The notes under the pieces: model-generated | Database searches by the model: none | What the model saw: only the letters and a program-made list of their open reading frames with translations | Told to the model about the DNA's origin: nothing | Source: Ceratodon purpureus | Lineage: Eukaryota > Streptophyta > Bryopsida > Pseudoditrichales > Ditrichaceae | Direction: 5' to 3' | Length of the DNA stretch: 64,000 nt | Assembly (NCBI GenBank): GCA_014871385.1 | Contig: CM026430.1 | Coordinates: 250,501-314,500, forward strand | Program-made: the position numbers and the translations under genes | Shown here: piece after piece, positions 665 to 21,873 of the stretch | Numbering within the stretch: the first letter of the stretch is position 1 | How the letters are laid out: each line of letters starts with the position of its first letter

Positions 665-694
665 AAAGGGGTATTTAAGTAATTATGGACAAAA
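665..694 (+). repeat. Left candidate terminal inverted repeat
   Basis: The 30 bases here match the reverse complement of 16127-16156 at 26 positions. The core TAATTATGGACAAAA corresponds to TAATTCTGGACAAAA on the other side. The word AATTATGGAC is repeated directly at 700-709. The AT-rich setting lowers the weight of the match, but the two copies sit exactly at the composition borders. Confidence 0.5.
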
Positions 695-906
695 CGCTCA
701 ATTATGGACTACTTTGCATCATCAGTAGACGTCCAATTCATGTGTTATCCCTCAAATTTAAAGACAAAGATGTCAAATATTTATGAAAAAATGCATTCCG
801 TTTACAAGGGATAAAATCATTTGAGTGAATTTATTATAATGTTGAATAGAGGACATCCCAGTCCCACTGTCATGGCCGAATCTCTCGGCGAGTGGCTGAC
901 TGAGAA

Positions 907-954
907 CCCTAAACCCTAGAAACCCTAAACCCTAGAAACCCTAAACCCTAGAAA
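907..954 (+). repeat. Interstitial telomere-like repeat
   Basis: Three tandem copies of the 16-mer CCCTAAACCCTAGAAA, followed by a partial copy. CCCTAAA is the plant telomere unit and CCCTAGAAA a variant. The tract lies just inside the left edge of the GC-rich block, so it may mark an old insertion or repair junction, or act as telo-box promoter sequence. Confidence 0.8.
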
Positions 955-1258
955 CCCTATCCTTAGAAATCTATCTGTTCTAATAAAAGGAAATACTTGC
1001 TCTGCAAAATGTGGATCTGTGAAGTGAAGCGGGTGAAGGGAAGATCGTCGGCGACCCGCTGAGTGGACACGACTGCCAGGCATCTCACATTGGGGTGTCC
1101 GTCTGTGAGGACTCCGGAGTCGTCGTTTAGAATGAACAGTATTCACGGTCACAACGAATGGAAGTCCTTTGTAGTCGGCTGGCCGCCGACTAGGAGAGCC
1201 AACCTCTTCCTCACTCAACCGACCTCTGGAATCTGAAATACATATAAAGATGATGAGG

Positions 1259-1444
1259 AAATAAGTCCTAGTCCTAGTGATAAAAATGATGAGTAAGCTA
1301 GTCCTAGTCGGCTATCAGCCGAGTAGGAGAGTAGGGGCTACTAGTCCTAATGATGAGTAAATAAGTCCTAGTCCTAATAATGCAAATGATGAGTAGGCTA
1401 GTCCTAGTCGGCTACCAGCCGAGTAGGGGAGTAGGGGCTACTAG
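1259..1444 (+). repeat. Tandem repeat, 100-bp period, two copies
   Basis: The segment beginning AATAAGTCCTAGTCC at 1259 recurs at 1359 with exactly 100-bp spacing and few differences. Each copy carries one variant of the palindrome (1307 and 1407), with right arm GCCGAG and multiple CTAGTCC words. It is noncoding. Confidence 0.85.
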
Positions 1445-1540
1445 ACTAGGTCGACGTTGGCAATTAGTCGTCCAGAAAACCCTAGAGAAGTGGATTACTA
1501 GAACGTTTACCAGTTTACTAGACGAACTCGTCGGCTGTCC

Positions 1541-1600
1541 ACTGTAGAAGAAGGTCGCATACTGTAGAAGCAGGTCGCATACTGTAGAAGTTTGTCGCAT
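1541..1600 (+). repeat. Tandem repeat, three 20-bp units
   Basis: Three adjacent units of the form ACTGTAGAAGNNNGTCGCAT, differing only at three central bases, directly upstream of the ORF at 1622. The preceding bases (about 1529-1540) look like a half palindrome GTCGGCTGTCC. Confidence 0.9.
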
Positions 1601-1621
1601 ATTGTCCAATATTTTGTCGTT

Positions 1622-2143
1622 ATGGTGAGGCGTGGTAGCAATGTGAGACCACTGGGTTATCAGGAGTCACCGGCTGACCTCGAGGAGCTCCGGCCATGGT
1701 ATAGGGCGGTGGTCGCCCGTTCTCGCAACACCGCCATTCCACGTTTCAAGTACATCACACGCCTTCTGCAGCCAGGTGCGGTGTGGTTTTGGAGTATTGC
1801 TCACACCATAGAGTTGTTGGAGATCGCTGACGCTTCGGGCATCGCCTTCCCACTGACATTCGAGGAGTCCGAGGAGTCTGAGGAGTCCGAGAGTGTTGGC
1901 AGCGTTCACTTCAGCCACACAGGGGAGGTGTCAACGCAAACCATGTCAACTGCAGGGTGGCTCCGCATTGTTGGCGAAGCATACGACAACTTGGAGGGTG
2001 CTGGAAGTCGGTGCTCTGGCCAAGATCAGTGGTGCGGAGGGAACGCAAGCCCGCAGTCCACGTATTCGTCGTTTGGATCCGTGCATCCATCCGTCGATAC
2101 TGGGTGTAGTGCTGTCCGAGCCAAGTCTACTGCGAAGGACTGA
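1622..2143 (+). CDS. Hypothetical protein of the element, 173 aa
   Basis: The open frame starts at ATG 1622 (MVRRGSNVRPLGYQ). It contains an acidic Ser/Glu stretch encoded by repeated GAGGAGTCC words at about 1862-1893. I recognise no family. The composition matches the GC-rich block rather than the flank, no palindrome interrupts it, and a 3' region with AATAGA/ATAGAG words follows. It may be one exon of a longer gene or a degraded coding remnant. It is the leftmost rightward ORF of the element and converges on the DUF7869-like gene. Confidence 0.35.
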   Translation: MVRRGSNVRPLGYQESPADLEELRPWYRAVVARSRNTAIPRFKYITRLLQPGAVWFWSIAHTIELLEIADASGIAFPLTFEESEESEESESVGSVHFSHTGEVSTQTMSTAGWLRIVGEAYDNLEGAGSRCSGQDQWCGGNASPQSTYSSFGSVHPSVDTGCSAVRAKSTAKD

Positions 2144-2793
2144 TCGCTTCATGGCGTTGGCGACCATATGCAGCTTTTTGGTTTTTTGGCTTTAGGGTGA
2201 ATTACTGTGTGTTAGAACTGTCCAGCTCGTTTTCAATAGAGCTGCTTCACACTCTCGGATAGTTGTAGAATTCATGGTTAGTATTTGTTACTGAGGCTTT
2301 AGGAGTAGTGGCATCTCTGATGTATACACAATACAAAGTAACATGTAAAGGGCGGAACACTACCGTTGTACTCCGATAAGAATATAATGAAATGGATAAA
2401 TATTTTTTCCCAGTTTCTCAAAGCGCATAGTGGTTCTACCAATGTTGTGGAAAGCGTCGGCGGGCAGCCGACTAGAGTAACAGTGTCCACCGTAAAAATC
2501 AAAGGCCATACAATATAGACCAGCCTCACAAAGTCACCGTTCATGATGCTTATCTAACATGGTTAGAGGCATCGGCGGACAGCCGACGACCACCGAAGAA
2601 GGAAAAGTAAGGCATCAGAACAACAATTAGAAGACAAAGCGTAATACATGACTAGTATTGGGTCTACGGTAGAATACAATTCTTATTCGAAGGAATCACA
2701 GTGTTTACAATATTCAACTATAACGTTTACAGAGGAAACCATCACTAGCTACATCTTCTACAGCTAAGATCACAATCGTCGGCGGGCAGCCGA
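2144..2793. other. Intergenic with palindromes at 2456, 2571, 2778
   Basis: There is no gene here. The stretch holds three copies of the 17-bp palindrome. The third (2778-2794) overlaps the last base of the TAG stop codon of the leftward gene. Spacing is consistent with the 3' untranslated region of the gene ending at 2794. Confidence 0.6.
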
Positions 2794-5700
2794 CTAGTCT
2801 TCCTCCTCGTCATTCCAGTTCATCGAGATTCCATGCGATTCGAAGTTTGCCATGGCAGCAATCACAACATCTTCGGGTATTAGATGGGACTTTGGGGGCC
2901 CCTCATGCGTAGTTTTCTTGGTCCTATGAGTGTATACAACGGATTTACACTCCACCCACTCCGCAAGAGTCAACTCCCTTTCCCACCGTCTTGTCCAGCA
3001 CTCTCTCGCAACCTTCTTCTTACCTTCCTTCTTGCCCTTCATCGGAGTCCACCATTCAACCTTGAACTTACCGTAATTAGGACCAGGCTCTGTTATAACA
3101 GGCTCTATCGCCCTACCCATCCAAATGGGTAGGTGGTCTTCCTTACACGGACGACAGAAAACCCAATCGCCACGTAAAACGTCACGATATGGGTTAAACA
3201 CAGACTTCGGCCTAGAGTTTTTCGGACCACAGAAAGGATAGGGCTCCACCTCATCCTCGTCACCGGGACGAATATCCGGATCCGGTATATATTCGTCCTG
3301 TGCATCGAATGTGGTGACGTGGTCCCGCTTCCAGTCTGAGATAGGCCAGAATCCTTCCTGTAAGGTGGCGGAATTGGGGGGCAGTGGCTCGTTGACCTCC
3401 TTTAAAATTCGCTCCCAATACAGTACATATGGTAACATGTCTTGTGCGTATTTCTTATCCCGAGCCATGCCAGTTCTCCAGTACTCAATGTACTTAGATA
3501 ATCCACTTTTAATGAAATTTCTCTTCTCTGAACACTCCGCTGCCCTTGCCACCTCTTTATCCGCGTTCTTCTTGCCCTCATCGACTTCAACACTACCCCA
3601 TAAGTGCTTATGAGGAACCGGTTTGGGATCACCGACGGGCAAACGTGGTTTACCCTCTTTGTCTGCCCTCCACATTTTCACGGGTTTGCCAGGTGGAAGC
3701 CATGACGGATCAGTTGCACGCTTCTTGTACGTCATTACGGGCCACCCCGCATCCTCCCCATCCTCCACCACATAGAACTTAAAAAGATGCATTTCACTGT
3801 GACCTTCTATCGCATTACCTCCGTCGTGATGAAAATCAGCAACATAACTTTTGAAGTCTGCCACTTCCTGAACAACCCCTGGAATAAAGGCAACTGTCTT
3901 CTGAGAATCCATGAATGCCTTCATAAGGTCTGCAAGGCAGTATGTGTTCTTTCGCTTAATGAGTTTCGATAGGTGACTGAAGTGGGCATCGATGTCCTCA
4001 TGTGTGTGTCCCACAATCAGGAAACCAACTGTAACTTCCTTGAATATTCGCCTCGCCGTCAGCAACGAGCAGAATGCTAGAAGAAACCGGTTCTTGTTGT
4101 CCTTCGCAGAATTGTCAAGCTGGAGATACAACTTCTTCGGCAAAGGAACAGCAGGCCTACCAGGCAGAGGTGGAGTGAGTGGCTCATCTCTAGAAGGTGG
4201 AATTGAGGGGATGCAACGTGACGATCCATGCATTAGCGCTGCAAAGAATTCATTCTGTGGCGGTGCCTCGAAGAGTGCTTTTGACTCCCGGACAGGTAGT
4301 CTCTCCAAGGCACGGAATACCCTGCACAACGAGGAGATTGTGAAATTTGGGTCTCCTGGCCACAGGGCAGTTGCATAGTGTGCGTAGGCGCCATCTCCGT
4401 GACCGTGAGTCAGCATTCCAGTACAGGAAATCGGAATTTGACCAAGCCCTGCCGTAGCCTTCGTGATACGTTGCATGCGGGGGATCGCTGTTTTCGATGT
4501 GTCCATCTTATCATGTATGATGCATAGGAACTCAGAAGGACTCTGTATAGATTGGGTTGTCCATCCGTAATAAATGTTGCGACAAGCTCGCTGATAGTTC
4601 AAATGCCTCGTCCTATCCTCTGTCAAGCTCTGCCACTCGTCCGACCCTCTTGGATACTTGGCAATGAGTTCAACGAGGAAGTCACACTCAGTGCACTTGG
4701 AGAAATTACTTCCTACGGCCTTGACCTCAACGTTGCGGAAGTACTCCTTCCTCATGCGACTAACGGAGGACTGCGAAATCAGCTTCGCGTTGCACTGCTC
4801 ATTGACCTGAATAGCACAGAGTGAGGTCGATCAGTTGGGAAGTTCGTCATCCAGTCGGCGGGCAGCCGACGATAGTAATCACTACAATTCAGTAAACTAT
4901 CCAAAGTGAAAGAAGATGAGGAGGAACTTACGGCGTTGGCCATTTCGCGCATGTGATTCCAGTTCATCGCAGACGGGAGTACTTTGAGCGCGGCCACTCT
5001 CTTCTTGCCAATCATCCGAAACTCATTGGGCATTTGGTCGGCATTCTCATTAACGATAGTGGTCAACGTCGCGCGGGCCTAGATTGTGTGAATCTGGGGA
5101 CGATGTACACCGGAATTTCCGTGACTCCCACTGACACGACCACTTCGGGCCGCAGCCTTGTAGCTGTAGTACGCGGATTTCGATACTCCGTGAATGATAT
5201 ACCACGCCACTTCACATACGTCAACGTTCGCAAGAGTAACATAGAGCTTCCGCTTGCCGGGTACAGTATGTAAGTGCCCTTGCACAGCGAAGGACATCTC
5301 TCGCCTCGCCTGGAATGTTGTTGCGTAAAATTTACGCCGAATACTCACAGTATCTTCCCATCTAAAAGTCTGGCAACATCGGTCCTTGCAACAGCGCTTT
5401 GAGCTCACTAAGCGGCATTCAGCAGGGACAACCATTCGACGAAGCTTAGTGGAAGAGACGTCATCTTTTTCGCGGACTTTCCTCCGCACCGATCGATAGG
5501 CATTCTTCGGGACACCATCCAGACCATCGTCCGCGTCGGCGTCTGCTAAATTCTCGGAGCAGTAAGTAATTATATCAGAGAGAAGGTGACCCCCTTCTAA
5601 CCGAGTGTGAGTCAGACGCCATCTGAGAGTTGTCATCTGCAGATGATCGTCTTCAGAGACGAAGAGAACCCCAACCTCTGTATCCCCTAGGACTTCATCA

Positions 5701-6704
5701 TCACATGCCTCGTCCGGTAAACATACTTGAATCATTGCTCTACCACGGACTGATAGATCATCATTAAGAAGTTCGACATACCGATTTCTCCAGAGGTGGC
5801 GGTCAGGATAAGAAGCATCTGGAGTGGAAGGAGTACCCGAGGTCCCGGAATCCGGACCCCAACAATGATCATCTGTTTCTACGTCGGATTCCCCTTGTTT
5901 AGACACATCGTCGTCACTGCTGATATTCATTGGAGACCTAGTCCCCAGATCCTGCTCAGACGGAGCGGAGTTGCTTTCATCAATTTCTTCATCTTCGTTC
6001 CCCAAGTGAGGCTCCGTCGGCGGGCAGCCGACGGGACATGTGCCAGCCAACGCGCCGTTCACAAGTGGACAAACCTTGTATCCACTCCAAAGTACCAATC
6101 GCCCCACAGCACACCCGATCGTTAACACATCCGGTAACTCGCAGAAAGCAGGTGCTTCAGAGAATTCTGGATTGACGGACGACACTCTCACTATTAGAAA
6201 GAAGCTGTGAGGAATCAAGAACCCCTCCCACGTTCCTTTAGGAGAGCACTCCATAATGACTCCAGCGGCTACACAACGCTTTGAGCCTCCGGATTCCTCG
6301 AGGAGCGCAACTTCCATCTGCTCTGCGAGGTCCAGGAATTCTTGAACGGGCTTGACATCTTCTTCAACATCCGTCGGCGGGCAGCCGACGGCCTTGATGT
6401 CATCGTCTTCCACCTCTCCGAAAGGCCTGAGGTCAGCCGCCTCCCACAATATCATTTGTCCTAAGCAGTTGCTCAAGGACTTCGCACCCTCATCCGGAAA
6501 TGGTATATTCATTTCCATGCTGTCTGAAACCTCAATCACTTTTACCACCACCACTATAGGATCAAATTCTACAACACGTTGGATCACTGCCCTGCCTGCA
6601 TAATAGAGCCCAGAATGAGTAAGGGCCACGACAACGCCCTTTTTAACCTTCCACCGCCCTGATCGGCCATTCCTTAGAAACGTCTGGATCGGCTCTACTT
6701 CCAT
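2794..6704 (-). CDS. DUF7869-type protein with DDE/RNase-H-like pattern
   Basis: I read two exons: 6704-4932 and 4806-2794, with an intron 4931-4807 (GTAAGT donor, ATTCAG acceptor) holding one palindrome. The frame is open upstream to 6827. ATG 6704 is the first in-frame ATG. The N-terminal ~430 residues are acidic and unrecognised and encode palindrome peptides VGCPPT at 6016 and 6373. Then come CCKDRCCQTF, a helical segment and SHGNSG, as at the start of the DUF7869 family. The second exon holds an SKCTECDF Cys pair, IIHDKMDTSK, LYLQLDNSAKDNKN and VGHTHEDIDAHF. The spacing of Asp in KMD, Asp in QLDN and Glu/Asp in HEDID resembles a DDE RNase-H fold, so a transposase-like role is inferred. 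A single in-frame TAG at 5079-5081 interrupts the first exon, so this copy may be inactive. Confidence 0.65.
5079..5081 (-). other. In-frame TAG inside DUF7869-like gene
   Basis: The frame before (6794-5082) and after (5078-4932) this codon is the same, and both sides carry family-like sequence. The TAG is therefore a nonsense change, a readthrough site, or hidden by splicing. A 57-nt in-frame intron (GTCAGT to AATCTAG) is possible, but it would remove the conserved HGN motif. Confidence 0.6.
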
Positions 6705-6829
6705 TGGATAAAAGATGAAGACCTCGTCGGCGGACAGCCGACAGGGTCGACGGGAAGTGTCCCCGCCGACGGAGTAAAATGTATCCGCCGACAACGAAGA
6801 CGACTCGGCGGGCAGCCGACGCGGATCCT

Positions 6830-7691
6830 ACGACTCGGAGTGTGCACAGAAATAGCATCCGCCGACAGAAATTGCAGGGGACCTGAGTTGAGAAGCAGTA
6901 TGATGTCCCTAACCTGTCCAATCAGAGACTCCTCTCAACCGTCCAATCAGAAACGATAGACGAAGACAACAGAAACGGCAACAGAAGGTGCGGGACAGTT
7001 AAGCACATGCGGGAATAATAACGGTCCTCTCAGGAAACGTGTGCGTCAGGAGCACTCTCAGAGGGAATCGAAAGTGCAATGACAGAAATAGAATGAAGTA
7101 TGCGCATCTGACGGGGGGTTAGTTATGAATTCCCAGGAGTACAAATTGGCGCCAGAATCGAATTCAATTTTGCGCGCCATGGACAGATCAAGATCCCATC
7201 ATGGCGGCGAGATGCCCCCGCCGTCACAGAACAATGTTGGTTCATTATTACGAATTTGAACGTGGCGATTGGAGCAGCTGTCATATCACATGCCCAGGCC
7301 ATCATGACTGGGTGACGGATTGAAAAAAAGTCAAAAGACGTCCCATCATCATCCTACGTGGCGTGATGGGACGGATGTTAGGGATGACCATCCATGCATG
7401 GATGGTATGTACATAGCCATACGTCATGACCCATCGGGCGTGACGATTCAGTCTCGGGAGGTGGGGGTCTGCAGGGTATACACCCGCCACTCCCGACATT
7501 TCCTCCTCATTTCCAGCCTTCTCTTTTTCAGCTCTCTTTTGTCCTCTTCTCAGCGCTCCGCAGAGGTCGCGTCGGCTGCTAGGTTTTTCTGCGTCGGCTG
7601 CTAGGGTTGAGGGCGTCGGCTCCTTCACCTGCGCGCGTCGGCTGCTGTTCGAAGGTCATCCGCCGACGGTGAAAGGCCATCCGCCGACGAC
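6830..7691. promoter_or_regulatory. Divergent intergenic/promoter region
   Basis: This separates the leftward DUF7869-like gene from the rightward ParB-like gene, so it should contain both promoters. It holds a 20-bp perfect palindrome with an RY motif at 7387-7406, pyrimidine-rich leader sequence at about 7500-7560, and six half-sites of the element palindrome (GTCGGC at 7571, 7593, 7615 and 7637; GCCGAC at 7662 and 7683) just before the start codon at 7692. Confidence 0.55.
7387..7406. promoter_or_regulatory. Perfect 20-bp palindrome with RY motif
   Basis: The sequence ACCATCCATGCATGGATGGT is fully self-complementary and contains CATGCATG, the RY/Sph core bound by plant B3-domain factors of the ABI3/LEC2/FUS3 group. 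It lies about 290 bp upstream of the ATG at 7692. The regulatory role is inferred from the motif. Confidence 0.45.
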
Positions 7692-10600
7692 ATGGCAGCC
7701 TCCGAGAGTGGGTAAGTTGTCCAGTCGGCTGTCCGCCGACACTCCCCTTCTTGAGTCCTTCAAGTTTCCAATTTCTCGCCTGGGTTTGTCCCTCCCGTCG
7801 GCTGTCCGCCGACGCCACCCCTGCTTTTGTCCTTCGTGTTTCTGTTTTCTCGCATGAGTTTGTCCCTCCCGTCGGCTGTCCGCCAACGCCACCCCTTTCT
7901 GAGTCCTTCATTTTTCTATTTTCTCACATGGGTTATTCCCCCCGTCGGCTGTCCGCCGATGGGTAGGTCGTGTCCATCCGCCCCGTCGGCTGTCCGCCGA
8001 TGGAGTGAGAATCTGATGGTCTAATCTTGTGATTCTAATTTTGCAGGGCGAAGGTCGACTCCACCGCAAAACCAAATGGGTTACGGTGGCTCTGTGACAA
8101 GGTTGTTGATCCTGAAGTAGAAATACTCGCACGGGGCTTGAAACCGAGGGTGACATTCCTCGCTGATTCGAAGATAACGGAGTGGGGCATCACCTGGCGT
8201 GAGACTCCCATGTCGCTGGGCTTCGTGACTAAAATAGGTCAGAAGCAAATGGCAGGTGGACCAAGATTTGAGATTATTGGTGCCAGGGAATGCGAGGATA
8301 ACGACAACGTGTTCTTGGTGTTTGCATCGGTTCCTGTCGCGGAGGGCACACCAGTGGACTGCTTCGCGGTTGTAATTCCGGTTGAGAAGTGCATGGACGG
8401 CTTGTGCTCTAAAGAAGTACAGGATGCGGCTACTTGGGGCAGGGGCGAGAACATAGCTGTTGAACAGATACTCGACGTGATTGATACGCTCGGGGACAAA
8501 GTGATGGAAGAGAAGACGAAGAACTTGGTTAAGCCTGCAGCAAAGAAAAGAGGCGGCCGCAAGTCTGCTGTAGAAGCGGGCACTGGTACAGTCACCCCCG
8601 AGACCGGAGAGACACAGACGACAGGGGAGTCATCGAGAAGGAAGAAGGGAAAGGCAGCGGCTGCTGAGGGCGAGGGTGGGAAGAAGAAAGGTGGGAAGAA
8701 GGAAGAGAAGAAGCAGACCGTGGCGGAAGCTCTCATGCTCGCAAACAATCTCACTTCCAAAACAAAGGACACCGACGTCCTTGCCATGTACCAGACGTTG
8801 GAGGAGGGACTTGGGCACTGCTTCCCCAACGGGCAACGTGCCCTTCCTTGTCAGATTCCATATAACAGGATACACATAGCTCCCGACGAATTCAAGTATA
8901 GAGCGATATTCAGGAAGAGGCAGGATCAGATAAGTCTTTTCTACAAAGGACTTGGAGCAATCCGGAAGAAGCCCGAGCTGTACTGCCTTCCTATGAGTGG
9001 TGACCCCAGAGTAAAGGATCCAGTGACGGGCGAGATTAAGCTTAAAGGCTTGGAAGGACTTCTTCGACCTTGGATGGCCCTTAATATCAAGTATTCACTT
9101 ACACTGGATGACGGCCAAACTAAGCTGGTACCTTGGTATGAAGATGAGGGCATCCACTGGTACATAATTGGGGGCCAGCACACGTTTGAGGCTTGTCGAG
9201 AACTGGGAGAGAAGGAACCACTGGACTCTCCTATGCGGCAGTATTACCTTAACCACGACATCATTCCTGTATATGCTGATAACAAGGATACCCTCATTAA
9301 GGTCTCTAACGCATTAAACATCGAGGTGAAGGATAAAGTCGCCGAAGTAAGTTTCAGGTCCCAGCTGGCGAAGATGCGCGCCAAATGGATCGAGCGGGGG
9401 AGGATCGACAAGAAAGATGACTACAGCGCATGGAAGGTAATTCACATCTTCCTCTTTTCCTGTTGTTTCCATGTAGTTGAAAGTCGTCGGCGGACCGCCG
9501 ACGCTCAAGTGGTTCTCCGTATTGCAGAAGTGGGATTTATTTATCAATGTCATTTTCTTCTTCCTTGCAGGAGTTCTGCAAGGAGTACCTCAGTCCGATT
9601 CTCGGAAAGTCCCCTACGTCCCAAACCTTCAAGTTGCCCTTAGTCTTCGTGTCTGACGAAACATACAACGAGTGGCAACTGGTGTTCGACGCCTGGGAGG
9701 AGGGGAGGATCATCGGGGAGGACGGTCTGAAACCAGGATTTCCCCCAAAGCCAGCCCGCCGGGACATAACATTCAACGACATGCAGTACGTGATCGGTCT
9801 TCGGGACCACGAATGCAAGAGGCTGGCCAAGGAAATTCTGGACCTTAAAGTGTACGTCAAGGTCACTGGGAAAGAGGTGGTTCAACGGGATGGAACATCA
9901 GTGGAGAATTGGTGTAAGCGTGTGAAATTCGAGTATATTGTCCGGAACGAGCTCATGTGTATTTACTGGGGCTTTGCACTGAAGAAACCAGGGACTGGGA
10001 AGCATATTGAGTGGAGCATGGATGACTGGAATTCCCTTGAAGTCGAGAAGGGGTTCAATGATACAATGGTTAGTAATATTCGGGCTGACTTGGAAGATAG
10101 TCCTGAGGGGAAGGAGTGGCTTAAGGGACGGAATCATCCGCTCACGCCGTCGCAAGGGCCAACACCAGAATTCTTCAAAGACATTGTGCAAAAGTACTGG
10201 AAGTCGGATGTGGACCAGTCTTCGCAGTCGTCTGTACAGTTCGATGTTCGGATTGCAGAGGACCTGGGTGAAGTGTGCACAGCTCTTGACGTTCGCGGAG
10301 CATTCTCCTTCAACAAGGCGCAGTATGAGATGTTCGTGGTCTTTGTCTACGATCCAGCGGGAAAGGAGATGCCTAACATGCGACAACAACACATTATAAC
10401 TATCGCTGAGAGGATTCACCGTGAGGTGGAGGAGGAGGTCATTCTGGATGGGGAGGTAGATACAATTAAGGTGAATAAGCTTGTCACCCCATCCTTGTGG
10501 CTACTCGATGCTGAGTGTAATCACACTCTTCAAGGCGTGTCAAGGCTGACGAGTAATTCGTGGACGGTTCATACTATGCAGTACTTCCCTGATAGTTCCG

Positions 10601-12221
10601 CCGGGTTTCAAAGGAGTTCTCTCATTGACTCTAGACCCAAGGTTCATGTGTCCGTTATGTATCCAAGAACAACGCCCGGGGATGCATGGAATACCTTCTC
10701 GGACTTCACTGGTTTGAAACGTCCGCTTCCTCCCTATGTGGACGAAGGAGAAGATCATCTTGGGGAGGATTGGTCAAATGGACACTGCCACGCTAGTTTC
10801 TCTTTCCTCCAATCTCTTCTGGAGAAAGCGATGCAGATTGAGGACGTTCGGGTGATCAATTGCTGGGGAGGGGGGAACGTCACGGCCCTCGCTCTGGTAA
10901 GTTACTGCAGTCTCTTCTGGTGCCTTCGCTGTTTGCTCACCGATCGTCGGCTGGCAGCCGACGCTGATTGAATCCTTCGTGTTTCTTGTGTAGAAGGTTT
11001 CCTTAACCGTTTCGTCTTGTTCTGCTGCAGAAAAACCATTTGACTGTAATTGAGATCGTGCGTACCGAGGAAGAGAGATACGAAGCGCACTGTCGGGTTC
11101 GGAATATGACGTTCATTCCGGGCGTTTATAACGTGCCCGTCCAAGCTCCAGTTCAGACCACGCAGTCTGGGGCCGGGCCGTCTGTCCCCGCCTCTGCTAG
11201 AGGCAGGACTGGCTCTCTCACGGCTGCCGACTTGGGTGTGAATGCGGAGGAGGCCCATTTGGTCGGGAAGGGTGGATGTATGGGTTCGGGGAAGACTGCG
11301 GGGGTTCCCTCACAGATTTTTCAGGACTCCGACGACAATGTCGACGAGGAGCCACCAGATGTACCCGACCCAGACGTTGAAGATGAAGCTGGAGATGGTG
11401 AGGAACAGCCAAGAAACGAGGACGACCAAGCTGAGGCTTTCATTGCAACTGGAGATGCAGAGGTAGAGGAGCGAGACACGCAGGAATTAGACTATGAACC
11501 AGAACCCGACGAATTACCACTGGAAGAATCGAATCCTCGTTACGTGAACCCACCGATGTTGCAAGTTCTAGGGGAGCAAGGAACTGACTCCCTCAGCTTC
11601 GGTATTATTTCTCCTACATTTCAAGAGCAGGAGACTCCTCTCGCCGAGCCAGAACGTGATTTAGACCAGGCGGGGCGTCCAAAGAAGATGCAGGTTCCTC
11701 TAGCATCGAGGCCTGACGATGAAGTGGTTCTCCGTGTCCAGAAGACAACCCAGGAGCCTGCAGTGAGCATTGAAGGGCATGTTCCTCCTGCTGCCGTCGG
11801 CGGGCAGCCGACGGCAGACAAGCAAACCTCATCTAACCCCTCTGCCAAGACCAAGTTGACAGGGAAGTCAATCGCATTCGTCACTCAAGGTGTGAAGGGC
11901 GCAACTCGGATGATTGGCCCGGATGAGAACCCTCTGGTGAAGACACGATCAATGAAGAGAAGTAAGACCGATGGTACTGCGCAGGATTCCTCTCTTGTGG
12001 GTAACTTATCCCGTGATTCCTCAGGGGTTCAGGAAGGGGAGGAGTCCTCTGGGAAGGGCAAACGGAAGGCTGCTTCGAAGAAGACTTCCTCCAAGAAGGG
12101 CACATCTGGGGATCTGCTCATGAGTCCCAGGAATGTGGACGCTCCAGAGGACGTTCTGTCACCTCCGTGGGCATCCAAACGGGAGCCTAGGCCGAAGAAG
12201 CACAAAGGTGGAGGTCAGTGA
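7692..12221 (+). CDS. ParB-like / DNA-methyltransferase-like protein, ~1308 aa
   Basis: Four exons join in frame: 7692-7711, 8047-9436, 9571-10896 and 11031-12221. Exon 1 encodes MAASESG. Residues ~140-220 are Lys/Glu-rich. Residues ~300-440 resemble a ParB N-terminal domain, with YCLPMSGDPR and IIGGQHTFEAC in place of the GGxHR box. Residues ~890-930 (INCWGGGNVTALAL, then IEIVRTEEERYEAHCRV across the third junction) match the shape of the SAM-binding motif I and following strand of N6/N4 DNA methyltransferases (FxGxGTTALA then IGIExxxxYxxxA). No DPPY box is evident, so any enzyme is degenerate or divergent. The C-terminal third is acidic and basic low-complexity with nuclear-localisation-like Lys runs and a palindrome-encoded VGGQPTA at 11796. 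Each intron holds palindromes: five in the first, one each in the others. The domain calls are inference from motif shape. Confidence 0.6.
7724..8001 (+). repeat. Intronic minisatellite built on the palindrome
   Basis: Five palindromes start at 7724, 7797, 7871, 7944 and 7985, giving periods of 73, 74, 73 and 41 bp. The intervening sequence also repeats (CTTTTGTCCTTC, TTTCTCGC and GGTTTGTCCCTCCC-like words), so this is a true tandem repeat. It fills most of intron 1 of the ParB-like gene (7712-8046). The palindrome loop is TGTCC in all five copies; stems vary at one base in three copies. Confidence 0.85.
9437..9570 (+). other. Intron 2 of ParB-like gene with palindrome
   Basis: This is a 134-nt GT-AG intron with a palindrome at 9486-9502, 49 nt after the donor. 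Its length and palindrome offset are identical to those of intron 3 (10897-11030). Confidence 0.8.
10897..11030 (+). other. Intron 3 of ParB-like gene with palindrome
   Basis: This is a 134-nt GT-AG intron with a palindrome at 10946-10962, again 49 nt after the donor. The loop (TGGCA) differs from intron 2 (GGACC), and the rest is only loosely similar. Words such as TCCTTCGTGTTTCT are shared with the minisatellite of intron 1. Confidence 0.8.
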
Positions 12222-12453
12222 ATCAGGCGGTGGCCCAGTCCATCTTTTAAATGCCTGCATTGATAATTTAGTGTAGTGATCGGGCTCTAGGATTGTGTTA
12301 GATGTTTGTACTGCCAAATATGAATAAATTTTCGGTAAATGCCAAGTTGTACGCTTTCCCTTTTTTCAAATAATGTTGCTTGCAAGTCGGCTGTCCGCCG
12401 ACCGTCATCCTAACCGTCACGTTTGTCCTCTGCTTCGTTTTCTGTCACTCCAG

Positions 12454-13223
12454 AGTCCGCGGACAAGGAAGTCCATGGAAATCTTCACGAAGATAGACCC
12501 AGTGCAGTTCTGGAGCAGGGACCTCCACCTCTGAATCCACTTCACATAGCCCCGGAACAGGCTGGTACTCAGGTACACGATCCAGTGCTGAAGTACTTTC
12601 TTGTTCTGGATATTAACGGCCTGCTATTAGTCCAGACGAAGCAGGGTACTAGGTGGAGTACTAAACTTAGACCGGGTTTAGAGAGGTTACTAGAGTTCTG
12701 CCTGGACAATTTCGAGGTGGTCTTCTGGAGCTGCGTTCAGGAAAAGAGGTTCCAGATTCTGTGGAAAGCGTTGCAGCAGCGCTGTCCTCGTCTAGATGCC
12801 GAAGTGCGCTACAAGTTCGACCAGAGTTTCTGCAAGACTTGCGTACATAAGGCTAGTAGGGAGTTTTATTTGAAGAGACTCCAGACCCTCTTTGACCTCG
12901 ATGACGGGCTGAAGGGGACGGGGGCGTCTTCAATTAACACTCTCTTGGTTGATGATTCCCCTTATAAGAATGTCGCAAACACTCCTTGGAACGCTGTGCA
13001 CCCTACACCATATACCTTCGAGTCGAAGGAGTCGGAAAGTAAGAGGAATTATCTGCTTGGAGAATTGATTCCTTGGCTTACCAGTTTGAAAGAATCCAAA
13101 CTCCCCGTGCCCGAGTACTGCCAGAAACATTCCGAATTCGGTCAGCGTCGTCTGTTTCCGGGGGATGAAGCTTATAGTCTCTTCTCTCCACACATTGATT
13201 GCCCTAAACGAAAGAGAACATAG
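12454..13223 (+). CDS. FCP1-like domain exon 1, altered catalytic motif
   Basis: This is a plant-type FCP1/HAD-like domain. YFLVLDINGLLLVQ occupies the place of DxDGT, so the second catalytic Asp is Asn, and the downstream boxes FEVVFWSCV and LLVDDSPYKN are present. Such DxNGLL proteins occur among plant FCP1-like proteins and are presumably poor or non-phosphatases. The frame contains no ATG at all. It begins at a splice acceptor (CACTCCAG, 12453). A GTCAGT donor at 12214 in the last codons of the ParB-like gene is in matching phase and would bypass its TGA, making a fusion. A polyadenylation-like AATAAA lies near 13311, and a palindrome follows the stop at 13264. Confidence 0.65.
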
Positions 13224-13537
13224 TAGATGTAGAAACTGTTTTAGAGAGCATGCACATGATTCAGTCGGCTGCCCGCCGATGGGATCTTCATGTATTTAGA
13301 CTTTTTCAGTAAATAAAGTTTTCCTCCTTTTAAATATATGAGAACGGAACTCACTGTCGAGACTGTGTATTCTGTCGTGGGTGTCTTATTGTGTCTCCAT
13401 TTGTACACTAGAGCAAGTATGAATTGTGAGCATGCGATTGATCACCGGAATTTTCTTGGAATTTGTCCTTCATTTTTCTGGAGTCACTGGAGGATGACGC
13501 TGAAATTAAAGTGCACCAGGGACCTTCCCTTCTTAGT

Positions 13538-14578
13538 ATGCTCTTGGAGGAGTACCCAACATCTCCTGATGGTGATGCTCTCAGAGAAGAGTCTCCGGGA
13601 GCGGAAGCCGAGAATGTCAGTGATGGGGAGGACGAGTACGACTATCCAGTCGGCGGGCCGCCGACGCTGTCTGCTGCACATAACTCTGGCCGGTGTGCGA
13701 TGGCTTCCACCTCGTTCGTCGAGACCAACGTCGCGATCCCGCGCACCGGTTCCCCGCGCGATGATTCCGTCAGTGTCAGCACTGATATTATTGCGCGTAA
13801 TATTGAGGTACCTCTCCAACGATACTACCTTGTCCTTGACATTAAGGGATTGCTCATCGCGGAGCACCACGGGTATATCGGTGATGACCAGAAGACAAAA
13901 ATTCATATCCGGGCTAGACCAGGACTTCTTTCATTTCTAGAGTTCTGCACGGCGAATTTCGAGGTAGTCTTTTGGTCCACGGTTTCTGAGAAGAATCTCG
14001 ATCGTCACTTCCAGAAGCTGTTAGCCATTCATCCTTTGCTCAGGAGCAATTACAGACGCCTTCCAGGATTCTGGTGTGATATCTCAACAAGGACTAATCC
14101 GAATGGGAAACGGGAGTACTTGTTGAAGCGTCTGGATAGACTTTTCTGCGACACTAGGCTACTGGCTCGATCAGGTGCCACTGTCCAGAATACCCTACTG
14201 GTAGACGACCGCCCTTATAGGAATGTCCTTAATCATCCATTTAGCGCTGTCCATCCTAATTCTTTTTTCTGGGACTCTGCAGAGTGCAAAGAACCTCAAC
14301 CCACCCCCAATCCCTATTCAACTAGGGTAGTTACACCATTCCTTGCAGGACTTAAGCAGTCTGGATTGGATGTCGAGGAGTATTGTAGGAGGAATTCTAG
14401 CGTGGGGAAGCCACGTCTTTTTCCAGAATCTCGCGAATACCAGAAGTATAGGGAGGTTATTCCTTCTCATGCATGCGGGTTTGACGTCCCGGGTAATCCT
14501 GGATCTTGGTTTGTGAATTTACCTTGTCCTCCGGAGGCCCCTGGTAGTTCCATCATCGGCGGGCAGCCGACTGATTAG
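13538..14578 (+). CDS. FCP1-like domain ORF 2, altered catalytic motif
   Basis: A second FCP1-like domain. YYLVLDIKGLLIAEHH replaces the catalytic DxDGT (second Asp to Lys), followed by FEVVFWSTVSEKN, NTLLVDDRPYRNVL and a C-terminal VEEYCRRN-RLFPESREY block shared with ORF 1 (VPEYCQKH-RLFPGDEAY). The frame is open from 13442, and ATG 13538 is the first in-frame ATG. Two palindromes are translated: VGGPPT at 13649 and IGGQPTD at 14555, which ends two codons before the stop. A Ser/Asp/Glu-rich leader of ~90 residues precedes the domain. It is a tandem paralogue of the neighbouring FCP1-like ORFs. Confidence 0.6.
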   Translation: MLLEEYPTSPDGDALREESPGAEAENVSDGEDEYDYPVGGPPTLSAAHNSGRCAMASTSFVETNVAIPRTGSPRDDSVSVSTDIIARNIEVPLQRYYLVLDIKGLLIAEHHGYIGDDQKTKIHIRARPGLLSFLEFCTANFEVVFWSTVSEKNLDRHFQKLLAIHPLLRSNYRRLPGFWCDISTRTNPNGKREYLLKRLDRLFCDTRLLARSGATVQNTLLVDDRPYRNVLNHPFSAVHPNSFFWDSAECKEPQPTPNPYSTRVVTPFLAGLKQSGLDVEEYCRRNSSVGKPRLFPESREYQKYREVIPSHACGFDVPGNPGSWFVNLPCPPEAPGSSIIGGQPTD

Positions 14579-14887
14579 AGCCTACATCAGCGGCGCCACT
14601 AGTTTTAAAAATCACATATGATACTCTGCACTCTTTAGTTTAATACGCTAAGACTGTTCCCTTTCTGAACTTCCCTGCACCACACAATTGTTTCCAGTGC
14701 TGCAATTCGGTACTTCTTTTTGTAGATGCATGCATGACATTTCACTTGCTGCACATTTACCTTTGAGGTTTCTTCAATGCATCGTTTTGTCGGCGGGTCG
14801 CCGACGACTTTGAATGTAGTCCATTTCTTTCATATACTTCGTCCTGTTCCTTGATTTCCTTCACTGATTGCATTTCATATTCTTCAG

Positions 14888-15565
14888 GGTTCCTCGTTTT
14901 ATTTCAAATGCCTTCACGGTCCACCTCATCATGTCAAGAAATGTATTGTCCTATGCGTCAATGGCCTTCTCTGCTATGTGGATCCCAGGATAGAGGCTTT
15001 GCCATGGGATACGCATCGGAATGTAGTGAAGCGCCCAGGTTTGAAGAAGCTTTTCGACATGCTTTTCTTGCATTTCCATGTTGGTCTGTGGTCGAAGATG
15101 CCCTTGGGAGAACTGAAGCCTTTACTCACACATATTCTGCCGGCCGGTGTAATGGAGAGGCTGTCCTTCGTGTATAGCAGAAGTGACCTTATCGACCGGG
15201 AGAATTTCCCCTGGAGTTATAAGACGTTAGGTCAAGTTTGCTCCAAGGTACAGTCTAGAAACGTCTGCAAACTAGATCAGGTGTTATTTGTGGATGTTGA
15301 CCCGAGGTCATTGAGGAGGACACCAAACTGTATGTGCTACATTCCTTGGCCTTTTCAGGGTCATCTAAACTTTCCGAACGATGACGGCGTTATACCTAAC
15401 ATTGCTACAGATATCCTTCCTCTGGTTTATCCCTTGCACAAGTTCGGATCTGTACCGGAGTATATGGCGCAGGCGTGTAGGCCGGGGCAAGTGCACTGGG
15501 CAATTGAAGCTGCGAGAAAGTTTGGACGTGCACGAGTGGACTGGACTGAAGTTTGCTGGGACTGA
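14888..15565 (+). CDS. FCP1-like domain exon 3, most divergent
   Basis: The frame opens at a splice acceptor (ATTCTTCAG at 14887). KCIVLCVNGLLCYVDPR aligns to the catalytic box, but the first Asp is Cys and the second Asn. FHVGLWSKMPLGE and LDQVLFVDVDPRS follow as the later motifs. The end VPEYMAQACRPG parallels the C-terminal VPEYCQKH of exon 1. No in-frame ATG precedes the domain, so an upstream exon is needed. Palindromes lie before it at 14789 and just after its TGA at 15632. With both nucleophile and acid residues gone, it is a pseudo-phosphatase fold at most. Confidence 0.55.
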   Translation, partial: GSSFYFKCLHGPPHHVKKCIVLCVNGLLCYVDPRIEALPWDTHRNVVKRPGLKKLFDMLFLHFHVGLWSKMPLGELKPLLTHILPAGVMERLSFVYSRSDLIDRENFPWSYKTLGQVCSKVQSRNVCKLDQVLFVDVDPRSLRRTPNCMCYIPWPFQGHLNFPNDDGVIPNIATDILPLVYPLHKFGSVPEYMAQACRPGQVHWAIEAARKFGRARVDWTEVCWD

Positions 15566-16126
15566 GTTAGGCGGACTTTTTCGCCTCCAATTTGCACTTC
15601 TTCCCTCCTCCTGACCAACAGAACACCTTCCATCGGCTGCCCGCCGACTTGGTCGACCCGTTTGTGCGGCCTTCAAATATATGATTTACTCATTCACCTT
15701 ACGGCTATGCTTTCAGGGAAATAGTTTTCAGAGTAGGTTATAATGTGATAGGATTTACGTGAACTTGGTACATAGTGCTGGGTGTAGACTTAATGTTGTA
15801 GGACTTCAGGACTCAAAGTGCTACGGGACTAGTTAGTTTAGCGTGTTCTATTATCGGCGGGTCGCCGACTCTGTATTGTACATTTCATTACTTGAATCAA
15901 CATGATATTCTTTAAAGTATTCATTGTAACTCTTATTCTGCATTATATGTCGCAATCTTCGGGTTCATATATCCATCACTGGCAAATTCCGCCCATGACA
16001 TCTCGATGTCTAGTTTTGCATTCCATATTCTGTGGTATTCATGTACAATGACACTGTTCATCTGTGGTCTCCATCCATCGGCGGTCCGCTGAGTTCGCAT
16101 TGGTCATTTTTGAATTCTGGACTTTT
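15566..16126. other. 3' region of the element, no gene
   Basis: It holds palindromes at 15632, 15853 and 16077 and no convincing ORF. A perfect 10-bp inverted repeat (AATTCTGGAC, eight T, GTCCAGAATT) at 16113-16140 straddles the inner edge of the right terminal repeat. Confidence 0.6.
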
Positions 16127-16156
16127 TTTTGTCCAGAATTACCTAAATATCCCTTA
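16127..16156 (-). repeat. Right candidate terminal inverted repeat
   Basis: Its reverse complement matches 665-694 at 26 of 30 positions. It lies exactly where GC-rich element sequence gives way to T-rich DNA. An ATATATATATT tract follows directly, and no clear target duplication is seen. Confidence 0.5.
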
Positions 16157-17210
16157 ATATATATATTTTGTTTTAATCTTTAAATTGTGACCGACCAATT
16201 ATTTTTATTTTTATTTTTAAATATTGTGTTTATTTTTTCTATTATCTAATTCTCTTCTTTTAGTTTACCTTAGTTTCTTTCGATCAATTTTTATCATGCC
16301 TAGCTTTCTTCATTTGTTTTATTTGTTTTTGAGCATGTATGTTTTTCCAGTTTAATAAGTTTTCTTTATTCATGTATATTGTATTTTTTTATTGCATTAA
16401 CATAGAGTCTTTATATTTTAAATGTATTCACTAAAATTTCACATCTGAACATTATATTTTATTTTCTCTGTTTCAATTTTAATCTACTATCTACAAGCCT
16501 TTTATTTTTAAATAATAATTTTATTTGATTCATTTATTTTCCTTCTTCTATTATTATCGTTCATGATATTCATTGTTTTACACATTTTATTTTATTTTTA
16601 ATTTTACTCCACAGTGGTTTAGAAACTATTTTCTTGTATTTCTTTCTTCTTCTTCTAATACGTTTGATATATTTCTCATTTCAATGTTTATTTTTTAATT
16701 CCATTTTTTTTTAATAAAAAAATCTTAATATTGTAATTCTGTATATCTAAAATCATTCACTTATTACTTCCTCTTACTCGATATTCATCCATTCAAAATC
16801 CACTGTCGTTTAATCCTTTTATAATTGACTTCCTTCTGCAATACACATCCTTCCCTTTTATATCCTCATGTATTTCCTTAACACCTTTTTCCCATTTCTT
16901 ATTTGTTTTCCATAGTGGTTGTTTGTTTGCTTCAAAATCTGTTACGTCAGTATCCGTATAGTTTGTTTAATTATTTCACTTTTTTTTATTTGTGAAATTT
17001 GAATGTTCTCACTCAATATACTGGTTGCGGAAAAATAACTAAATAATTTAAAAGCCACAATCAAAATGTACAGTTAAAAAGTTACACAAAAATTTACCCC
17101 TCGAAATTTACATCTGACCCTTGAAAATGGCGGCATTTCAAAATTTCTTGCATCTATGCACTACATAAATTATCACTTCTACGATGATTGTACACTTCAT
17201 CAACAACCTC
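16157..17210. other. AT-rich spacer between the two elements
   Basis: Strongly T/A-rich sequence without long ORFs. I see no gene or structured repeat. It separates the palindrome-bearing block from the Ulp1-type gene. Confidence 0.7.
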
Positions 17211-20200
17211 CTAAAATCCAACAGATACACTACATCTGCGTCGACCTGCCTTTCCGCTACTCAATGCAAAGACTATAGCTTCCTTCAATCCCTTCCGTAG
17301 TACAAAAATCTCGTTGTGCTCGAAACAGTCCGACATCTGCAAACATAATCGAAACATTAATATTATGTTGTATATCAAACGAAGAGACCCTAATCCAGAG
17401 TTGTGCTCTTCGTAAACTGACAAATATCCAAAGCACTACACTCAGCACAGCACAATACACGATATACACTACATGACTACATTCACTACAACACTACAAT
17501 CATTCAAGTAGTCCATAGAGCAGGTTACTTACATCACCCTCCCAGTCCCTCTCGTTGGCGGTGGTTTGCTTCAAGTACGAACTCAACATCACAATATAGC
17601 ACCCTACATAGAATCCACATGTCCAATCGTCTGGTTGCTGTGGACATTTGACATGGACCCATGACTGAATAGAGGACGCCCGCTTCCACTGAGGAGTACC
17701 CGGTCCATGTCCATTGGCCATGCACCACAACTTTGCCATTGCCACGTGGAGACATTGTGGCCCATGAAAGTTTGGATTTGTGTGATAACCTGAATCAAAC
17801 TTGTAGAAGCCCTCGTCTGATATCACCGCTAAACTCCAGTGCCTGCAATCAAATACTGGTATGAACAGTATCTTGTCCTGAAAATTAGCAATGTAAGGGT
17901 TGTCCTCATAAAATCCACGTAGTGCGTGTTGTGAGACAGATCGATTTGTAAGGATTCTTAGTGACACTGCAAAATCGGTCTTGCAGATAAGTACGCCAGG
18001 AGGTGTATCACCCTCAACCCACTTAGCAAACCAATCCATCAATGGAGGACTCAATCCCATCCCAGATAAATCCAGTATCTCCATGTCTCCATCCTCGGTC
18101 AGCCTGATCTTCTCATCGCCAAAACAGAAGTCAAAGTATCGTCCTCTCACACGGCCATCTTCTAGAGAGATTTGGTCCATTGGGAGATTGAGTAAGCTGC
18201 AATAATAGAAACCCTTTATTTATACAATGCGCATGTTCAGATCGAGAAAAATGCCACAGGGAGCACGTAGCTACTTGACCTATACCGCACTACAGATTTC
18301 CTTAGCACTACTTCTTTGGACCAAACGACAATTGAAGCAGTAAACACTATGCTACTCCTCATGAAGTAACAGACATAGGAATTGTAGGGCTACACTACCT
18401 ACTAGGTGTGTGGACCTCTTCGGTAGCAGGTCCATGCACTACATCAGCAGCACTTGCAGCCTCCTTGTTCGCAGGTTCCTCCTCTCTTCTGAGAACATTT
18501 TGGCTTGCCAATGCTGCCCCTTGAATGTCTCCTTCAACCATTGCAGAGGCAACGTCTCCAAATGAACCCTCGTCTCCATGATCAAAGTCCAGTACCCGCA
18601 TGGGTGTATGACATGTACCTGACCCTTGACCAAGCATAACTTGAAGGTGATACGGAGTCTTGCGGTGCCATTGTGTACAACCGTCCTCCATAACCACCGG
18701 CCTTGGCATCTTTATGTGCTCGCAAAGGAGACGTCTCTCCCTGTCCTCTGTACCAACATCTGGAGAGATCTCAATTTGAGACCAATCTAACTGTTGTGTA
18801 AACTGAGAGCCCACAATCTGGGACATCTGAGGAATCTCCAGATGATCCAAGTTTACAGGACTGCTCATCGACCTTGGCTCCGAAGCTCCTCCATCAGAAT
18901 ATCCAAGAAGCTTGAATGTTATGTCTTGTTCCTTGCAGTGCAACTCCGTAAGTACGTCGACGACCTTCTCTACACATGGTCTTAGATTCTCCGGCGGTGG
19001 CCCTTGATTCTCCAACCCAAGCATAGACCAACCCAAGTCGACGTTTTCTCGCAAGATAAACACCCTAGAAAACACCTGAAACCTCCCACCCAATACAATA
19101 TTCAAGTAAGCCTCACATTCACCCTAAACTGGGCTGCACTACAGCTCTCTCATACTAAGGTAGATGTGCATTCTAGGCATTTAAAGCACTTACAAGACTC
19201 AATGCAAGAGCACGTCCAAAAAAAAAACGCCAAATTCGAATGTAGCTCACCTCCTCACACTGCAGTCGTAGTGCACTGACATCCTCTGGTGGAGGGGTGT
19301 ACCACATTGCAGCCACATCGGATCGATGCTCGTCAATCCGATACAGATCTACAAGGGCACGACAAGCTATCTTTCGAAGAAAAAGTTCGACCTTCTCCAG
19401 CACAGGATCCTGGCTCCACCCTTCGAAACCCATCAATGCAACCATGTCGGAGCATGACATAGACCTTGGTTCTGTAGTTTTCCCGAATGTGCATGGAAAA
19501 TAAGCAAATCCAATGTCAACCACGTCTTGGGCACATATGGACAATCGCCGTGACTCCACTACATTTTCAGCAATCTCCAGGAGCTTTGGCCTGGTTACAC
19601 CCTTCACTGGGTGTGCTAGTGGTACACCGCGTCCCTCTATCATTCTAGTGTATAGTTTTAACGCACGCACTACATGTGGGCATTCGGACTCAAGACTAGA
19701 CCTGTTAGTCCCTACCTCCTCCCCTAAAACCCGCATGATCTCCTGTAGCTCTTCCTCAGTATGCTTCCAAGGTCGTTGTGGTCCGGTACTTGGGAGGTCC
19801 CTGATAAGGGCCTGATAGATAGGCGACCACGACCAAAGCCTCTCCTCTACTGCATAGGCTTCCTCCTCTGTCTCCAATTCCTTCAACGCTTTTTGTATGT
19901 GCGAGTCTCGTGCTTCTTGTAATGCACCATCTACATATACCTGGTACTCCCGAAGCTGCTGAGTGTACTCCAGATACAACTCAAGCTTCTTTAGTTCGTT
20001 GTCTCTGCCCATCTTGTCTTCCATCGCACGATATGGGTTCCAACAGCTTGTAGCACAGTGTACAAAAGACTGCATTCGCTCTTCATCGGGAAAGGTGGCC
20101 ATGTCATCCTTCAGAGCACGGGGAACGGTCTCAGTGCAAATACATAAGTCAACCATCACAAATTGTGCTACACTACATCAACTCAGTATAGTTGTGCACT

Positions 20201-21100
20201 ACATTAACTTACTGTAGCTTCATTAGTTAGGAAGTTAGCGATTTACTTACCACTCTTGCTAGGCGCCATTGTACCCAGTGACCTAGCGCTGGGATTATCT
20301 TCTCTGATAGTTTCCCATTACGTTCCATGCTGGTAAGGTGCTCCATGCATTGGATAGGCTGCATCAACAAGTCCTTCTCCACTACACTGATAGGTCCTTC
20401 ACTGAGTAGGTAGTATAGGCCCGGCACAGGCACAGACTCTGGGGCATCACGAAGATCCCTAACATCATTGATAGTAAGGAGGTCTGCTTCACGCTGAGCC
20501 TCTCGAAGTACCTCATCGCGTCTCTTACTTGATATGTGCGATACTGGTGAGCAAGAGGTGGTGGGTAAATGGAGACCGTTATCTGCCATGGCCTCTTGAA
20601 CCTCGCCTTGGTCCTCTGTCATTACAACGTTATCCTCCATGTCTTCCTCACCTTCATCATAGATCAGATTTCTAGGTTTCACACGGAAATGTTGATGGTC
20701 GTCCCCTGTTCCTTCAGAATGTGCAACATTCAGTATGCACTGTGCCACTACTTCTCTAGGACTATCAAACTCTTTGTCTGACTCCCCTAAGTCGATAGCG
20801 TTCCCTGAAATCCCCGCACTACCTGAATCCACCCTTGTCTTCTTCCTACTCCTGGTTTCACGTACCGACTGCAGCCGCCTCATACTCTTTCTCCTTGTCT
20901 CGAGCCCGTCTCTTTCGCTACCATCCCTTGTACTCTGCGACCCTGTCCTCGACCTTCTCCTCTTATTCCCGCTACCTCCTCCCACATCGGTTGTAGTGTC
21001 TGCCGAGGATTTGTGAGCAAAGTTTGGAAGGTCGGGAGAACTTACCACAGTATTCTTCATCCTTCTTGGACGCATCGAAGGTGCATGTAGTGCATCGGAT
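17157..21100. repeat. CACTAC/GTAGTG word enrichment across Ulp1-type gene
   Basis: About twenty copies of CACTAC (either strand) lie in 4 kb, where roughly two are expected by chance. There is a dense run at 17428-17500 (CACTACA repeated five times). At least one copy of CACTAC or the shorter ACTAC occurs in every intron of the gene, and further copies lie inside coding exons and just downstream of the gene. Confidence 0.65.
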
Positions 21101-21873
21101 CTGCGGCTTTTGGTGTGGCTCTTGTCCCCTCTGCTACCTGTAACCCCTGTTCCCCTTTCACCCCCTCTACTCCTCGAAGTTGACCCTAAACCATCTCCAT
21201 GTGCTCCAGTTGGATTTGCCGCCCCCTCTTGTCGTGGAGCCCAAGGCTGGGACCCTGACTTAGCTGGGAACTAGAGCCCGCACTCAGCTAGTATGGTCTC
21301 AGCAGCCTTGGTATCGCTAGGTTTGAATGTTGGATACATCTTCAAAATCCCTCCCTTACCATTCTTCATCCTCCTCCATTCTATGCACTGATTTCTGTGG
21401 CGGTGATAGGACAGTGCATTCTTGTCGGAGAAGTCTTCCTTGCAGTATAGACACCAGTACCATCTTCTTCTATCCTTCCCCTCGATAACATGGTAGACGT
21501 GATATCTGCAGTTGTAATGGGCTTCTACTACCAGGTCTTTGTACTCCTGCTCCGTAAACAGACATACACATGGCTCACGGCCCTGAGTGAGAGTGCACCG
21601 ATACAGATTCTCACCTTTCACCTTTGCCCCATGTACTAAACCCACTGGCCCATTCAACACTATGTCCCACCACTTTTCAAATCCTAACTCTGCAATAAGC
21701 CTGAAATCCTTGTTCACCCTAATGCTACCAAGCTCTCTGCCCTGTTCATACTCAGGACCAGTTATTCCAATACCATACCCCTCGATTTGTGTATCAGAAA
21801 TTGTTCCCACTCTGTGCCTCTCCGTGCTGCCCTGTCCATCGCTGATCATTTCTTCGTCCCCCCCACCCTCCAT
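17211..21873 (-). CDS. Ulp1-type protease gene with zinc-finger-like N-terminus
   Basis: Five exons join in frame: 21873-20251, 20129-19251, 19075-18399, 18196-17533 and 17336-17211 (about 1320 codons). Residues ~141-163 hold a C-x2-C ... H-x-H-x3-C zinc-finger-like motif. The middle is basic (Arg/Lys-rich, ~260-330) then acidic, and the second exon is predicted helical and resembles no family I know. The fourth exon is a C48/Ulp1 protease with CRHWSLAV (His), YKFDSGYH (Asp) and PQQPDDWTCGFYV (Gln and Cys). Ulp1-like proteases are typical of several plant and fungal DNA transposons, so a mobile-element origin is likely. One in-frame TAG (21271-21273) splits the first exon, and earlier exons may lie at 21900-22220. 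Introns and exons are rich in CACTAC/GTAGTG words. Confidence 0.6.
21271..21273 (-). other. In-frame TAG in Ulp1-type gene
   Basis: Frames on both sides (21873-21274 and 21270-20251) are identical and open. I found no splice pair that removes the codon and keeps the frame. It is either a nonsense mutation, a readthrough codon, or the boundary between two genes. Confidence 0.6.

Follow-up and report, generated by a model that had tools for sequence, protein, structure and literature searches.

What does a palindrome do that recurs along a single gene block? The question is raised by a 64,000-nucleotide stretch of Ceratodon purpureus DNA (contig CM026430.1, positions 250,501 to 314,500; hereafter the window), in which GTCGGCN5GCCGAC is found again and again over about 15 kb. 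The block is a transposon, among the genomic matches listed the palindrome is specific to its family, and a different palindrome is carried by a sister element whose genes are homologous. We see about an even chance that the palindrome is a family-specific protein-binding site, read by the element's own protein (best candidate the product of gene 2), which would keep the family's own copies open against DNA methylation.

A palindrome spread along a young transposon

The bounds of the element were set by comparing the window with three copies from contig C1. Fourteen copies were examined (the window and 13 others). Four of the 14 (c6, c11, c3 and c4) either break off before the right end or depart from the element early and were left out; c12 was kept, its flanks not matching, and all ten-copy counts refer to the copies with both ends. 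These are 97.3-99.9% identical, and perfect 4-bp target duplications are found in 9/10. Inverted ends of 29 bp together with a fixed 4-bp duplication are features of a terminal inverted repeat (TIR), class II transposon. Across the genome searched (362 Mb, 151 contigs) the left end occurs at 40 places at least (40 of 310 candidates scored) and the exon encoding the DUF7869 domain at no fewer than 68 (68 of 1297 candidates scored), the latter being 98-100% identical and stop-free in 60/68 cases. The block is a plant TIR (class II) DNA transposon, young and recently active. Copy c11 also contains a GC-rich minisatellite, which has nothing to do with the element.

A pattern scan of the window finds 15 exact palindromes, compared to 0 in 100 dinucleotide shuffles. 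At up to two mismatches there are 28 (15 + 11 + 2; starts from 884 to 15853; shuffle mean 0.65, maximum 3), and the same scan gives zero before or after the element. An earlier, sequence-only reading had reported 28 copies between 1047 and 16093 and none in the other 48 kb. The number and the absence elsewhere are confirmed; the range fits as well, except that a site with two mismatches lies earlier, at 884, and that the last one, at 16077, has three. The same reading had placed copies in introns, at stop codons and in coding frames, which agrees with what is found: no intron of the four modelled by eye (4813-4931, 7712-8046, 9437-9570, 10897-11030) is without one, a stop codon is overlapped at 2778, and five lie inside coding frames (6016, 6373, 11796, 13649, 14555). 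These five stand in open frames after an ATG and all use one of the three possible frames, V/I-G-x-x-P-T (by eye). The palindrome at 6726 falls in a listed open reading frame (ORF) upstream of its first ATG, in a different frame (by eye). Single half-sites (GTCGGC or GCCGAC) are clustered ahead of both gene starts, at 7571-7690 (gene 2) and 6765-6866 (gene 1). In the other blocks of the window, a scan for repeated spaced palindromes yielded nothing beyond single or double cases.

Genome-wide, the exact pattern occurs 2858 times versus 3 for the reversed control pattern. Among the 50 of 2858 matches listed, 49 are located in three full-length copies and one in a miniature inverted-repeat transposable element (MITE) with the same ends. 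The palindrome had been taken for a property of the element, and among these matches it is one, all being in family members; a similar density everywhere with no link to the genes is not seen among them. The MITE (L019:4899-5279, G000:C1) is non-coding, 381 bp in length, and has the element's ends, a GTAT duplication and one perfect palindrome.

Small derivatives of this kind bear on the idea that the palindromes serve transposase binding or end synapsis, similar to the subterminal repeats of En/Spm but extended inward. The MITE retains both ends; its perfect palindrome lies 57 bp inside one of them, and close to the other there is a degraded copy. A further pattern gave 262 matches (control 0); among the roughly 100 listed, 27 (by eye) share the MITE-type spacing of 53 bases between a TIR letter run and the palindrome. 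One of the 27 was fetched and confirmed as a MITE, and the remaining listed matches resemble the array in intron 1. However, the MITE matches were chosen by an exact palindrome and share descent, and degradation in the full-length element is strongest at the outermost sites (884, 1047, 16077; 2-3 mismatches), with exact sites deep in the interior, ~7 kb from either end. We regard a role in transposase binding or end synapsis as unlikely.

Besides, a sub-type TTAGCTCA-N3-TGAGCTAA is present at G000:C1:18062501-18093045 in arrays of ~26 and 41 bp. It is perhaps a third palindrome family.

Site architecture and the sister element

The architecture was evaluated on the 26 sites (52 half-sites) that have no or one mismatch. 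The unit consists of two half-sites (M)GTCGGCKG around a single free base, and the outer base is C/A in 47/52 half-sites. Position 8 is G in 24/26 sites and position 10 is C in 24/26, and positions 7/11 are K/M. At 7/11 the combinations G..A (10), T..C (9), G..C (4) and T..A (3) occur, such that a pair is possible in only 7/26. The half-sites are spaced by 11 bp, about one helical turn, a distance that the pattern itself demands. An asymmetry between the two was considered and dropped (19/26 sites, P 0.03; 16/23, P 0.09, with three array sites set aside by hand).

The rare 7/11 pairing and the 11-bp spacing favour a dimeric protein bound along one face of the DNA over a hairpin. Hence we infer that the palindrome is a predicted protein-dimer site on DNA with its halves one helical turn apart. 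The sequence-only reading had seen stems kept and loops varying and concluded on either a DNA palindrome or an RNA hairpin, which is half right, the loop not being free at positions 8 and 10. The 6-bp arms could indeed pair as a short stem on either strand. However, the sites occur in spacers as well as in genes on either strand, and the window has no Rfam match at gathering scores; together with the 7/11 combinations this renders RNA hairpins acting in transcripts extremely improbable.

Among the 40-bp flanks of the 26 sites, two within-array pairs reach a likeness of 0.83-0.88 and every other pair stays at or below 0.60. The 100-bp and 74-bp arrays spread by tandem copying. The earlier statement that simple copying does not account for the family is therefore valid for the sites outside arrays, which share no flanks, but not for the two arrays.

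A sister element, known from one stretch, has genes homologous to those described here, gene 2 among them, and its corresponding introns carry a palindrome with other letters and like geometry (odd, one-base centre). Hardly any DNA similarity to the window element is left: the sole blastn match comprises 69 bp at 74% and lies over a telomere-like array. This short array of AACCCTAAACCCTAGA units is located near the left end (window 905-959; L041:732-798). Selection on the palindrome is argued from this diverged sister with its different palindrome in corresponding introns, and not from conservation within the family. Such a pattern is predicted by a self-encoded reader that diverges together with its site, but neither by one host factor nor by neutral spread.

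GCCGAC is the core of the dehydration-responsive element/C-repeat (DRE/CRT) bound by plant AP2/ERF-DREB proteins. A host factor of this type might be drawn to the sites, and the element may use host stress signals that way. The half-site equals this core, and single half-sites are clustered ahead of both main genes. On the other hand, a promoter element would not look like paired half-sites scattered across 15 kb, coding frames included, and the unrelated palindrome of the sister is not explained by one host factor. We regard this explanation as quite improbable.

A candidate reader and what speaks against it

With its halves one helical turn apart and its copies placed in introns, in spacers and at a few coding positions that tolerate it, the palindrome would mark the whole 15 kb. 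The likeliest reader would be a protein encoded by the element, with the fast-changing gene 2 product as best candidate. Its likeliest job would be to counter host DNA methylation so that the family's own copies stay accessible to transcription, in the way that VANC acts on VANDAL elements. Related elements would have changed gene 2 and palindrome together, such that each acts for its own family. We infer dimer binding, a reader function of gene 2 and anti-silencing; the latter two are proposed by analogy to VANC, and since gene 2 is fast changing and has arrays in its own introns. Changes over three of its exons are even across the codon positions (62/64/70).

Several results weigh against this reading. 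For gene 2 the libraries give no match at curated cut-off and no recognised DNA-binding domain, the only weak match below cut-off being FlbD (E 0.02-0.06). Exon 3 of the sister shows a weak match, likewise below cut-off, to MHCassoc_trimer (E 0.0026). DUF7869 has no match in the sister stretch at E 0.5, and the sister is known without ends or transposase. Sites inside coding frames are present here, unlike VANC21 motifs. Moreover, conservation within the family gives no sign of selection. In the ten copies 13/306 columns of the arms are polymorphic versus 148/2710 of the flanks (P 0.42), and for CpG the numbers are 4/49 in the arms versus 103/717 elsewhere (P 0.29). As the difference between arms and flanks is not significant, no selection is shown within the family, whose copies are young. 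The earlier claim of selection on the arms, in so far as it was drawn from copies of this family, is hence not upheld, and covariation of the arms between copies is uninformative because the arms hardly vary. A four-copy figure of 2.2% (arms) versus 4.1% (flanks) is superseded, as it included chance sites with three mismatches. C>T changes amount to 87/1696 at CG, 77/1584 at CHG and 108/4585 at CHH, compared to 40, 71 and 104 other changes. The excess is clear at CG, but at CHG it is partly matched by other changes (4.5% at CHG). Finally, the element has an observed-to-expected CpG ratio of 0.85, a value also attained by a gene block nearby (0.93; tyrosinase-like by eye), with five other blocks at 0.48-0.78. 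Youth or coding content may account for it.

Within-family conservation no higher than that of the flanks and the growth of two arrays by tandem duplication would also fit neutral palindromes, either small inserts that spread by themselves or repeats that hitch-hike. Sites outside arrays however share no flanks, the palindromes in corresponding introns of homologous elements differ in letters and are alike in geometry, and the five sites after an ATG all keep to one of three frames. Taken together, neutral spread appears improbable.

A different version of a self-encoded reader would be a private-palindrome system that evolved in a plant lineage and a type of transposon distinct from the Arabidopsis VANDALs. 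In it gene 2 would encode a ParB/methyltransferase-like protein that loads as a dimer onto its palindromes and coats the whole element, and families would diverge by changing protein and palindrome together. We assign it a rather low probability. The ParB/methyltransferase kinship is an impression by eye, for which searches of Pfam, PHROGs, NCBIfam and PDB gave no support; against ParB, no match was obtained in these at E up to 10, with filters that discard most weak hits. By eye, WYIIGGQHTFEACREL in gene 2 (window 8846-9436; in the sister, IINGQHSVAASKSL) appears ParB/sulfiredoxin-like, with no support from library searches. The fold predicted for gene 2 from the single sequence is uninformative (mean predicted local distance difference test score 35.7). 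For its C-terminal end and an exon in the C3 stretch, P is 0.07 and kinship is not established.

The remaining genes are listed in the table below. DUF7869 is a family with no assigned function; here the DUF7869 protein of gene 1 is probably the transposase. Changes in its exon mostly affect third codon positions (6/4/21); the counts for the upstream ORF are 9/10/20. The modelled intron of gene 1 holds a palindrome, and the modelled structure leaves the join at 4931-5079 unplaced. Orf0 matches the sister element at 52-53% (tblastn, best E 4.7e-18), has no Pfam match and bears an additional in-frame stop in three other copies compared. In the four copies compared, the DUF7869 exon is mostly intact and most other ORFs gained or lost stops in at least one copy. 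Relatives of the DUF7869 protein were not confirmed in IMG/VR; eight stretches there have one exact palindrome each. The open-access literature searched yielded no paper on this element or on DUF7869.

Features of the element (positions in the window)
Feature	Position	Strand	Basis or remark
Whole DNA transposon, 15,490 bp, AATA 4-bp target duplication on both sides	666..16155		Comparison with other copies
Left 29-bp TIR	666..694	+	26/29 identical to reverse complement of right end
Right 29-bp TIR	16127..16155	-	Aligned to left end
28 dispersed palindromes (M)GTCGGCKG-N-CMGCCGAC(K)	884..15869		At most 2 mismatches
Palindrome starts	884, 1047, 1174, 1307, 1407, 2456, 2571, 2778, 4854, 6016, 6373, 6726, 6804, 7724, 7797, 7871, 7944, 7985, 9486, 10946, 11796, 12386, 13264, 13649, 14555, 14789, 15632, 15853
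Degraded palindrome near right end	16077..16093		3 mismatches
100-bp tandem repeat, palindrome in each unit	1250..1444		Unit number varies among copies
orf0, 183 amino acids, TTG start as listed	1592..2143	+	Homologous to duplicated ORF of sister element
Gene 1: exon 2794-4755 with DUF7869 (PF25273), upstream ORF 5079-6794	2794..6794	-	Pfam 1.4e-43
Single half-sites (GTCGGC x4, GCCGAC x2) just upstream of gene 2 start	7571..7690
Gene 2, 1309 amino acids, exons 7692-7711, 8047-9436, 9571-10896, 11031-12221	7692..12221	+	GT-AG introns
74-bp tandem array in gene 2 intron 1, one palindrome per unit	7720..7959		Unit number varies among copies
Three NIF/HAD phosphatase-like ORFs (PF03031)	12423-13223, 13463-14578, 14978-15565	+	Pfam 3.4e-12, 8.1e-10, 3e-5
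Span of the three PF03031 ORFs	12423..15565	+

A neighbouring block (window 17159-21086) with an Ulp1-type protease ORF (17503-18180, minus strand) contains 16 CACTACA, 14 of them on the plus strand; 11 more are found in the window outside 16200-24000. The 8-mers GCACTACA and ATGTAGTG occur in the block in 8 and 9 copies versus 0.20 and 0.27 expected. This block is perhaps another element with its own motif, following the same principle.

Comparison with known systems

DNA transposons of the Sola superfamily have 4-bp target duplications. The element resembles them in this respect and in its TIRs; it differs in being very large and in having accessory genes. En/Spm carries subterminal TNPA sites, a short motif repeated many times at its ends. 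A short motif is likewise repeated many times within the present element, but along its whole length. ParB-parS relies on palindromic sites, which are likewise found here, and IIGGQHTFEAC of gene 2 (sister: IINGQHSVAAS) appears ParB/sulfiredoxin-like by eye, with no library or PDB support.

The closest parallel is drawn to VANDAL/VANC of Arabidopsis. According to PMC5735166, VANC21 binds a short motif in the non-coding parts of VANDAL21, tandem repeats of the motif vary among copies, and the motifs of VANC6 differ. VANDAL non-coding regions are targeted by RNA-directed DNA methylation, according to PMC10398659. Likenesses are the family-specific short motif in introns, spacers and ends, the copy-variable tandem arrays and the different motifs of related families (PMC5735166, PMC10398659). 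Three features of a VANC-type system are found here: a dispersed motif specific to the family (among the matches listed), copy-variable arrays and a different motif in a related element (one sister stretch). Differences are the strict palindrome with its one-base centre, the coding-frame sites, the 4-bp duplications and DUF7869. The VANC domains named in PMC5735166 (DUF1985, DUF287) are absent among the Pfam matches of the ORFs scanned, and because they were not found we do not file the element as a VANC member. It may nevertheless work like a VANC system. If so, it would be an independent counterpart of VANC-type anti-silencing in another kind of transposon, and the sequence by itself would suffice to read its palindromic code. 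As the palindromes of homologous elements differ in corresponding introns, the co-evolution of protein and site would be directly testable, and a young family with many near-identical copies renders such experiments feasible.

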